IMG/VR virus record: IMGVR_UViG_3300029957_000006
Span: 1 to 64,000 of that record
Direction: 5' to 3' (one strand)
DNA: 64,000 nucleotides
DNA from: a virus
Both the position numbers and the translations under genes were made by a program. Under the pieces are notes generated by a model. That model was not told where the DNA came from and searched no databases. It saw nothing but the letters and a program-made list of their open reading frames with translations. Positions within the stretch are counted from its first letter, which is position 1; the number at the start of each line of letters is the position of its first letter. Of the stretch, positions 42,732 through 45,403 are shown piece by piece.

Positions 42732-43260
42732 CACTTAGTACAAAATTGATTTTAAAATCAGTGAGTCTCCCACTTAGACATTTCTCTTTGCCCCAAGCTT
42801 CAAACACTGGGATATGTTCTAAACGATCATCCCACATTTCAACACTAGTAACTGATTGATGTTCGTCCAATAGCTTGTTAAGTGTTTTAACCTTAGCTAT
42901 TTCAGTTGCACCACCTTTGTTAAAATGATGACCATCAAAGGTCAAGCCTTTAATTTCAAGGATATCCCTAACATGATCAGCCAAGTGTTGTAGACGACCA
43001 GTCAACATAATAACACCTGTTTCAGGTAATGCTCGTTCTTTCTCGTAATCTGCAATGACAAGTGGATTGGATGGCATATCAAAGATTCTATGATCAAGTG
43101 ATTCCTCTCGACCCCACCAACCTTTATGTGGCCATTCTTTGCCAGTCTTTTTCTGAAAGTGCAGCTTTCCCGTCTCAGGCAATGGTGTATTAATAAGCGT
43201 TCCATCAAAGTCGAAGATGGCCAATTTAGTTATTTTTCTTGTATTTCCAAAGGTATCCAT
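42715..43260 (-). CDS. HAD-superfamily phosphatase with endonuclease-donated start
   Basis: 181 residues. FDFDGT (17-22; first Asp nucleophile) and MLTGRLQHL, then a late WDDRLEHIP match a Swiss-army-knife type HAD (PNKP-like C-terminal) phosphatase. Its first 11 residues (MDTFGNTRKIT) are coded by the 3' end of the GIY-YIG gene in another frame; the original start region survives at 43957-44010. Overlaps the endonuclease by 35 nt. Confidence 0.8.
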   Translation of the reverse strand: MDTFGNTRKITKLAIFDFDGTLINTPLPETGKLHFQKKTGKEWPHKGWWGREESLDHRIFDMPSNPLVIADYEKERALPETGVIMLTGRLQHLADHVRDILEIKGLTFDGHHFNKGGATEIAKVKTLNKLLDEHQSVTSVEMWDDRLEHIPVFEAWGKEKCLSGRLTDFKINFVLSDNHGK

Positions 43261-43918
43261 AAGCTGTTTTTGATTTTTTTGTTAAATTCATACTAATATT
43301 TTTTCTAGAAAAACCTAATTCTTCCTCCACATCTTTAGCACTTTTCCATTCTTTAATTTGTTCACCATCTAAATTATATTGAATTATGGGTTTTTTAATA
43401 CTTTCAGCGTTATTACTAATCCAAATTTCATTTTTTATTATTTTTCTTCCTTTAGATTTTTCACAAGCTAATTTATGTGCTGATGTGCTACCTGTTTTTT
43501 TTCTAGTTTCTGAAATTAATTTTTTTGTTTCTTCAGTGTGTTTTTTATAAACCTTTGTTTTATTATAAGCTATTATTTTCTTACGATGTTCATCACTTAT
43601 TTTTCTACCAAATCCACCATCACCACCTAAAGTTAAATTAATACCATTTTCATTACTCCCATGAAATGAATTGAAAAATCCAATATAAAAAATTTCTAAC
43701 TCATTTAATTCGATTAATGTATTTTCGCCTTCATATATTATTTCAAATGTATGACCACTAAAACCATGCTTTGATAATGAATTAAATAAAAGTGGTTGTT
43801 TTTTACATTTTAATCGTCTATAATAATCAATCCTAAGAGTTAAGTTAGTTGTTTTTCCAATATAAATTCGACCAGTTGGTGATGTTATTTTGTAAATGTA
43901 TCCATATTTCTTTTCCAT
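43226..43918 (-). CDS. GIY-YIG homing endonuclease (NUMOD C-terminal)
   Basis: 230 residues from MEKKYGYIYKIT. GIY-YIG domain: YGYIYKITSPTGRIYIGKT (4-22), with Arg later; Gly-rich NLTLGGDGGFGRK; C-terminal NUMOD-type DNA-binding repeat (QYNLDGEQIKEWKSAKDVEEELGFSRKNI). It interrupted the HAD phosphatase gene after its DFDGTL codons. The ATG sits at the foot of a hairpin (AAACGAG 43919-43925 / CTCGTTT 43940-43946) that also carries the ATATTTATAATAAACT element. Confidence 0.88.
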   Translation of the reverse strand: MEKKYGYIYKITSPTGRIYIGKTTNLTLRIDYYRRLKCKKQPLLFNSLSKHGFSGHTFEIIYEGENTLIELNELEIFYIGFFNSFHGSNENGINLTLGGDGGFGRKISDEHRKKIIAYNKTKVYKKHTEETKKLISETRKKTGSTSAHKLACEKSKGRKIIKNEIWISNNAESIKKPIIQYNLDGEQIKEWKSAKDVEEELGFSRKNISMNLTKKSKTAYGYLWKYKKNN

Positions 43919-43946
43919 AAACGAGTTTATTATAAATATCTCGTTT
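43919..43946 (-). promoter_or_regulatory. Hairpin at the GIY-YIG start codon
   Basis: 7-bp stem immediately before the ATG, loop side contains the 16-nt element 43924-43939 shared with HNH gene 2. Probably limits translation. Confidence 0.55.
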
Positions 43947-43956
43947 TTTATCAAAA

Positions 43957-44010
43957 TCAAAATAATGTGCCATCAAAATCAAATATCGCTAGTTTTGTAA
44001 AGGTTGTCAT
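43957..44010 (-). pseudogene. Remnant of the original HAD phosphatase start
   Basis: 17 codons, MTTFTKLAIFDFDGTLF then stop. TKLAIFDFDGTL is identical at protein level to residues 11-23 of the HAD protein at 42715-43260 but differs in many third positions. The ATG overlaps the stop of 44007-44333 as ATGA, so this was the native start before the GIY-YIG gene arrived. Confidence 0.8.
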
Positions 44011-44333
44011 TTTATATGTAATTTTTTTAATATTCTTTGCATTAATGTTAATGGTGGTGGTTCCAATAAAGAACCATATATACGCTTTGTTGCACTTCCT
44101 ATGAGGATTTTAGTTATTGGACCATGAGCATTTATTGCATTCTTTAATGCACCATTAATCTTTGTTGTTGTTACTACTTTTATCTTTTTTAACTGTTCAA
44201 TGGTAGCTAAATTATCTTTCTCATATTCATCAACAAACATCAGTATTGCTTCAATATCAGTTGAACTAACCTTATTTTTTAAAGCTTGTTCCAGTTTATT
44301 TTGTAATTTGCCACGTCTTGTTTTAAATTTCAT
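44007..44333 (-). CDS. Hypothetical basic protein
   Basis: 108 residues from MKFKTRRGKLQNK (ATG 44331-44333). Helical and basic; unknown family. Leader 6 nt after the -7 box. Confidence 0.6.
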   Translation of the reverse strand: MKFKTRRGKLQNKLEQALKNKVSSTDIEAILMFVDEYEKDNLATIEQLKKIKVVTTTKINGALKNAINAHGPITKILIGSATKRIYGSLLEPPPLTLMQRILKKLHIK

Positions 44334-44339
44334 CTTTGA

Positions 44340-44371
44340 CAAAGGTAGTGATTTATTTTCATTTTTCCAAA
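44340..44371 (-). promoter_or_regulatory. Promoter of 44007-44333
   Basis: TTTG (44368-44371), N20, TACCTTTG (44340-44347). Confidence 0.85.
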
Positions 44372-44908: not shown

Positions 44909-45403
44909 TTATTTGTTACTTTTAGGCTTAAGAGTAACAAACATTTTTTTACCTTCCATTGAAGGCATTGCTTCTGGAACACCATACTCTTCTACTGATA
45001 CGATAACCTTTAATAAAAGAGCTTTACCATTATCAATATAAGACATTTCACGTCCTTTGAATTGCATGCTAATCTTTACCTTATGACCTTTTTGAAGGAA
45101 TTCTATCATGTGTTTGAGACGATAACTCAAATCATTTTCAGAAGTATTTGGACCAAGTTTTATCTCTTTCATTTCAAGAGTTTTATTCTTTGGCTTTTTA
45201 CCCAATTCATAAATGAATTTTTCATAATTCATAATCTTACAAACTGGTGGTACAGAATGTTCATTGATTAAAACCAAATCCATTTCTTTTGATTCAGCTA
45301 ATGCAATTGCAGAATCCAAGGACATGATTCCACCTTCTGTTACTCGTACTTCATTTGCTCTGATTTCTCTATTAAGCAAATGTTGTTTTTTCTTTTTGTT
45401 CAT
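44909..45403 (-). CDS. infC: Translation initiation factor IF-3
   Basis: 164 residues. Full two-domain IF-3: LLNREIRANEVRV...GGIMSLDSAIALAESKEMDLVLI...PPVCKIMNYEKF (N-domain), linker, then KEIKLGPNTSENDLSYRLKHMIEFLQKGHKVKISMQFKGREM and the C-domain. IF-3 checks start codons and blocks 30S-50S joining. Bacterial IF-3 works against leaderless mRNAs, so a phage-encoded version in a genome rich in leaderless mRNAs may alter that choice (inference). Confidence 0.93.
   Translation of the reverse strand: MNKKKKQHLLNREIRANEVRVTEGGIMSLDSAIALAESKEMDLVLINEHSVPPVCKIMNYEKFIYELGKKPKNKTLEMKEIKLGPNTSENDLSYRLKHMIEFLQKGHKVKISMQFKGREMSYIDNGKALLLKVIVSVEEYGVPEAMPSMEGKKMFVTLKPKSNK

Follow-up and report, generated by a model that had tools for sequence, protein, structure and literature searches.

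Homing elements are known to tolerate coding genes as targets mainly through splicing or by taking up an intergenic position. In the WHO elements of Torulaspora and Lachancea yeasts, termed a third structural class of homing element, homing exchanges the 3′ end of FBA1 for one that is divergent and resistant, and the native end stays behind as a fragment that serves as a homology arm, with no splicing involved (Coughlan et al., 2020; PMC7282813). The mechanism has been proposed and partly proven, allele-specific cutting having been shown for a WHO protein (PMC7282813). Mobile ORFs of fungal mitochondria form gene hybrids, in atp6, atp9, cox2 and nad3 of Glomus and in atp6 of Allomyces, and an end-replacement mechanism has been inferred for them (PMC3630166). 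Free-standing homing endonuclease genes (HEGs) of the T4 type split genes, as mobE does in nrdA of phage Aeh1 and mobA in gene 60/39 of T4 (PMC2988022).

The element described here lies in a stretch of 64,000 nucleotides (the window) from a 124-kb record of a bacterial virus. Like a WHO element, it consists of a stand-alone endonuclease beside an intact chimeric target and a fragment of the same gene end; unlike the yeast elements, which act on the 3′ end of a nuclear gene, it replaces a 5′ end, and most copies have the new start codon overprinted within the endonuclease gene. The enzymes also differ: WHO elements encode a fusion of an intein-like endonuclease with a zinc finger, the phage element a GIY-YIG/NUMOD protein. 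The phage element thus operates in the manner of a WHO element, yet falls outside that family. With the mitochondrial mobile ORFs it shares an endonuclease ORF that brings a foreign host-gene end, the native end being kept as a separate copy, and copies that are low in nucleotide and high in protein identity; the mitochondrial cases differ in that C-terminal ends are replaced, and the atp6 case involves a LAGLIDADG enzyme (PMC3630166). MobE and mobA are likewise free-standing phage genes within a functional gene whose function is kept, but the two halves are made as separate polypeptides and there is no duplicated replacement end, and the T4 genes SegF and SegG also encode stand-alone GIY-YIG enzymes adjoining their target genes, but are inserted between genes, with no stub or replacement start described (PMC2988022). 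An engineered home-and-rescue gene drive also homes into an essential gene while carrying a rescue; it is a synthetic CRISPR construct in flies and serves as an analogy only (PMC7968924). A search of the open-access literature found no phage example of end replacement. We argue that at this locus a homing element has very probably put a divergent copy, one that probably resists cutting, in place of the 5′ end of its target, leaving the native 5′ end behind.

The interrupted phosphatase gene

An earlier note on this DNA had described a surviving gene start followed by a stop, a GIY-YIG gene next to it, and a HAD-family gene that repeats the stub segment after 11 codons taken in another frame from the end of the endonuclease gene. 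Each of these features was confirmed at its coordinates (Table 1). The ATGA at the start of the stub overlaps the stop codon of the 111-aa gene upstream. At the other side of the element the HAD and endonuclease ORFs overlap by 35 nt in different frames, and the HAD protein begins MDTFGNTRKIT-KLAIFDFDGTL. Over the 12 codons common to stub and tail, all 12 amino acids are identical and 25 of 36 nucleotides match; the synonymous differences noted earlier affect nine of these codons. The repeat is well beyond chance: when the peptides of the two flanks were scanned against each other it scored 62, and none of 80 mismatched pairs exceeded 43.

Table 1. Features of the interrupted HAD locus in the window, with the endonuclease gene of the IF3 element
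Feature	Position	Strand	Description and basis
Conserved 111-aa gene	44007–44342	-	Function not assigned; adjoins the HAD gene in many uninterrupted relatives
Stub, orphan native HAD 5′ end	43957–44010	-	17 codons, ATGACAACC...TTTTGA, reading MTTFTKLAIFDFDGTLF then stop; from the sequence and uninterrupted relatives
Element left end	43947–43962	-	TTTTGATTTTGATAAA; from the sequence
Small hairpin	43921–43944	-	ACGAG...CTCGT, loop GATATTTATAATAAA; directly 5′ of the endonuclease start
GIY-YIG homing endonuclease ORF, 230 aa	43226–43918	-	ATG at 43918, TAA at 43226; Pfam and PHROG
Overlap of endonuclease end and new HAD start	43226–43260	-	NUMOD1-region end, AYGYLWKYKKNN then stop, overprinted by MDTFGNTRKIT; from the sequence
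Rescue tail	43195–43230	-	Divergent second copy of TKLAIFDFDGTL; sequence comparison with the stub
Full HAD-family phosphatase, 181 aa	42715–43260	-	New start; Pfam, PHROG and structure model
IF3-element GIY-YIG gene	L195 2001–2882		

The putative left end resembles the FDFD codons of the target, out of frame, and related elements carry a TTTTGATTTYGAKAAA-like version of it. Pairing in the adjacent hairpin is preserved in several relatives though the stem sequence varies; folding is strong in some of these (z -4.9 and -6.8) and weak in the window (z -1.6). The loop sequence or near variants of it also occur 5′ of GIY-YIG genes that belong to different subfamilies (window 43926–43940; L005, L007, L024, L103, L132 and L197), where a hairpin often presents it in its loop, and it is possibly a shared promoter or translational control element. 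A role as a phage-wide promoter was rejected, as the window shows no enrichment of the sequence. Just beyond the window, the same virus record has a second GIY-YIG gene, a distant one (G000:C1:64246–64863).

The endonuclease matches the Pfam GIY-YIG family above its cut-off (PF01541, 2.6e-5, 24.9 bits against 22.6) and the PHROG homing endonuclease family at 9e-28. Its NUMOD1 and NUMOD3 matches both fall under the Pfam cut-off; NUMOD1 is over the cut-off in the related endonucleases of L025, L029 and L041. Residues Y9, Y19-I20-G21, R29, E75 and N94, whose catalytic roles we take to be those of their counterparts in I-TevI, are invariant across three homologues. No relatives of this endonuclease were found in bacterial genome contigs, and megablast found no close named phage for the window. 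The HAD protein matches Pfam HAD_SAK_1 (PF10307, 9.6e-9, 35.7 bits against a cut-off of 25.6) and PHROG polynucleotide kinase (5.7e-8). Its DxDGT, TGR, lysine and acidic motifs are all intact, with D17, D19, T21, T87-G88-R89, K123 and D145 invariant, and the catalytic residues are invariant in genes both with and without the interruption. The structure model has a mean pLDDT of 92 and is confident from residue 12 on; the leader derived from the endonuclease (the first ten residues) is of low confidence and precedes the first beta strand. With the displaced piece supplied again in another spelling, the HAD gene should still work.

Recurrence and uninterrupted relatives

The arrangement of stub, left end, endonuclease and new start is present at eight distinct HAD loci in viral contigs (the window, L005, L007, L022, L024, L025, L027 and L144), and a different HAD family shows it in L030 and, partly or less clearly, in L029. 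The stubs vary between phages, for example MDKITKLAVFDFDSTLVVK and MINIKKISVFDFDGTLF, each followed by a stop, and the motif glycine is gone from that of L005. Related HAD genes without the interruption contributed at least 33 distinct start sequences. In these relatives a single HAD gene starts exactly where the stub starts; the upstream gene and the ATGA overlap or start context are those of the stub in L103, L113/L114, L018 and L006, the same upstream gene immediately precedes HAD in L103, L107, L127 and others, and the context in L113/L114 (uninterrupted) matches that of L025. The relatives support the earlier reading that an endonuclease split the HAD gene. The leader peptide MDTFGNTRK, whose occurrence without a GIY-YIG gene the earlier note had held to count against its reading, is found in three contigs across all of IMG/VR, and a GIY-YIG gene is present in 3/3. 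Among eight GIY-YIG loci of annotated crAss-like, Streptococcus and Flavobacterium phages, no stub/tail duplication was found.

L022 can be set beside the empty allele of L018, to which its stub is 80% and its tail 72% identical; the native upstream hairpin and start context are kept by the stub only and are absent from the downstream copy. The stub is nearer than the tail to the closest empty allele in 6/7 loci, a count that is not significant alone. A near-isogenic empty allele for the window was looked for and not found, the nearest empty-allele bodies being 67% identical to its HAD body, and we infer from the relatives that the window's own tail probably came from outside. Codon tests of tails against empty alleles were weak or post hoc (TTC against TTT, p=0.04; second Phe, p=0.12), and selection for a specific re-spelling of the FDFDGT codons was dropped as an explanation on that account.

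Two further observations concern the make-up of these elements. In L025 and L027 about 50 bp 5′ of the endonuclease start are identical and the endonucleases just 67% identical, which suggests mosaic recombination between elements. In L053 and L045 a GIY-YIG gene stands immediately 3′ of an apparent intein N-terminal half (CTPEHKILTKNRGW), judged by eye, which is possibly the remnant of a split intein.

What moves and what stays behind

The closest pair of occupied and empty HAD alleles is L005, with the element, and L006, without it. The 1,229 bp upstream, up to the insertion, are identical. Across the HAD gene 20/494 nt differ, the body being about 96% identical, and the changes are concentrated in the repeated segment (7/26 nt against 20/494; Fisher p=1.5e-4), where they affect nearly every KLAVFD codon and include TTT to CTA, ending at GATGG in the active-site codons. 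The L005 stub matches L006 at 32/36 positions and the L005 tail at 29/36. Given the clustering of the tail changes and the closer match of the stub, L005 looks like an L006-type gene in which the first codons were swapped for a diverged version up to the active-site motif, the old start being left in place. L005 also lacks an additional ORF, about 70 codons long, that in L006 separates the upstream gene from HAD (L006:3786–4000).

A different picture comes from L005 and L025. Their GIY-YIG proteins are 88% and their HAD proteins 56% identical in amino acids, which suggests that the endonuclease moves independently of the host. At the DNA level identity is about 90% over the left end and most of the endonuclease and drops to about 66% at the tail; the HAD bodies are about 66% identical, so that the tails differ as much as the bodies. 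Tails that have diverged beside a common endonuclease imply that they are at times exchanged, re-derived or fast-evolving after transfer, and it appears that the tail does not always travel unchanged with the endonuclease.

The block common to L005 and L025 runs from the end of the stub over the left end and the endonuclease and leaves out the tail. This is what would be expected if the endonuclease had inserted just 5′ of a native HAD gene that stayed intact, the stub being a foreign fragment brought along with it, with neither disruption nor rescue. Consistent with that account, a complete start lies after or near the endonuclease end in L022, L025, L030 and L195. However, the native start context is held by the stub and not by the downstream copy, and in L005 it is the stub that is nearer the empty allele, with the tail changes stopping at the motif. 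A foreign origin of the stub is therefore improbable, and it is contradicted at a second target gene, where the block held in common is the endonuclease with the new 5′ end and it is the stubs that differ.

At this second target, a different GIY-YIG/NUMOD3 enzyme splits a phage IF3 gene at PPV/CKIM (L103/L195 and L196), with stub and replacement start present; the window holds an uninterrupted counterpart of this gene at 44909–45403. L195 and L196 match at 1,128/1,132 nt over a stretch that opens with the PPV codons closing the stub, takes in the endonuclease and stops shortly beyond CKIM in the new IF3 copy. On either side the sequences diverge: identity is 89/154 (58%) in the left flank, where each has its own stub, and 198/264 (75%) in the right flank, where each has its own IF3 body. 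In L197, a third phage, the endonuclease is truncated, but the IF3 5′ end is identical and the right boundary falls at the same place. A near-identical block between divergent flanks identifies endonuclease and IF3 5′ end as a mobile unit, and the comparison shows the two moving as one while the 5′ end of the recipient is left as a stub, probably in a very recent transfer between phages. The proposal of the earlier note that the element brought its own tail of host-gene sequence therefore stands for the shared unit at IF3 and is suggested by L005 and L006; it does not extend to L005 and L025, which share the endonuclease and not the tail.

Flank-to-flank peptide scans of about 75 and 154 GIY-YIG loci gave further cases. 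In L041, L249 and L351 a 5′ stub and a new start surround a GIY-YIG gene, the functions of the targets being unassigned. At L132 (1300–2600) and L216/L220 (L220–L228) the 3′ end is affected, the upstream gene having a complete C-terminus and a second C-terminal fragment following the endonuclease or being fused to it in frame; these cases have the polarity of the yeast WHO elements.

The same 12 codons could also be present twice if the gene start had simply been duplicated in tandem, an endonuclease had happened to insert between the two copies, and these had then drifted neutrally. We regard this as very unlikely, as the arrangement recurs in at least eight HAD loci and, with different endonucleases, in other genes, the contexts of stub and tail differ, and the two copies in L005 differ at 10/36 nt, yet the body there has stayed so close to the empty allele.

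Phage introns often carry endonucleases of the GIY-YIG homing kind, and a group I intron or other splicing element carrying this one might restore the original start. There are, though, only about 40 nt between the stub stop and the endonuclease start and none before the new HAD start, so that an intron core could not fit outside the ORF. The locus gave no match to an intron family, Rfam at a permissive threshold giving chance hits only; moreover, the gene is complete unspliced, and the repeat would be redundant for an intron. Splicing, which the earlier note had named as evidence against its own reading, is a scarcely credible explanation. Nor do we give any real weight to a gene in pieces in which stub peptide and HAD product are both required, as for the split nrdA of phage Aeh1: insertion of HEGs into functional genes with function retained is known (PMC2988022), but here the downstream gene encodes the whole fold including the motif of the stub, modelled with confidence once past the leader, the stubs are short, and in L005 the stub is without the motif glycine. 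An intein is ruled out by the stop codon after the stub, the different frames and the lack of a Pfam splicing domain.

A proposed route of homing

Replacement of the 5′ end by a homing element thus remains the preferred reading. Its junctions are those that comparison shows; cleavage, expression and immunity would be as follows. The element would have three parts: a short left end, the GIY-YIG/NUMOD endonuclease, and a version of the target's 5′ end that is divergent but functional. In a mixed infection the endonuclease would cut an uninterrupted HAD gene at or beside the active-site FDFDGT codons. Repair from the donor would follow, the native 5′ end pairing with the donor stub and the body past the motif with the donor body. 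The recipient would be left with its own 5′ end as a dead stub, the endonuclease, and a chimeric target made up of the donor 5′ end and its own body; sequence comparison shows this product at IF3 and strongly suggests it at HAD. The re-spelled 5′ end would escape both recognition by the enzyme and recombination with the stub, so that the element would be neither cut nor excised, an immunity that we infer from the apparently foreign origin of the tail.

In most copies the new start codon lies inside the NUMOD1 coding sequence, which makes it probable that the target gene and the endonuclease are translated in a coupled way. Towards the NUMOD1 end, the Tyr-Gly codons TAT GGA include an ATG that is read in the other frame, which would explain the frequent MDxFGN-like leaders and suggests that the enzyme may be pre-adapted to supply a start codon.

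Taken more broadly, phages may carry a widespread, so far undescribed class of homing element, a generalisation that we hold with as much doubt as belief. Its members would be neither introns, inteins nor simple intergenic HEGs; their targets would be conserved coding motifs in many genes, and a divergent gene end of their own would make good the damage. Both 5′ and 3′ versions would exist, and in the 5′ version the rescued gene would take its start from a C-terminal motif of the endonuclease. With the near-isogenic alleles, cutting and resistance can be tested directly in vitro. A phage mirror image of the WHO elements suggests that end replacement arose more than once, and the phage element would be a natural counterpart of engineered home-and-rescue drives. 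End replacement would account for chimeric phage genes with two histories, and would show how a phage enzyme can have a new N-terminus forced on it by a selfish gene.
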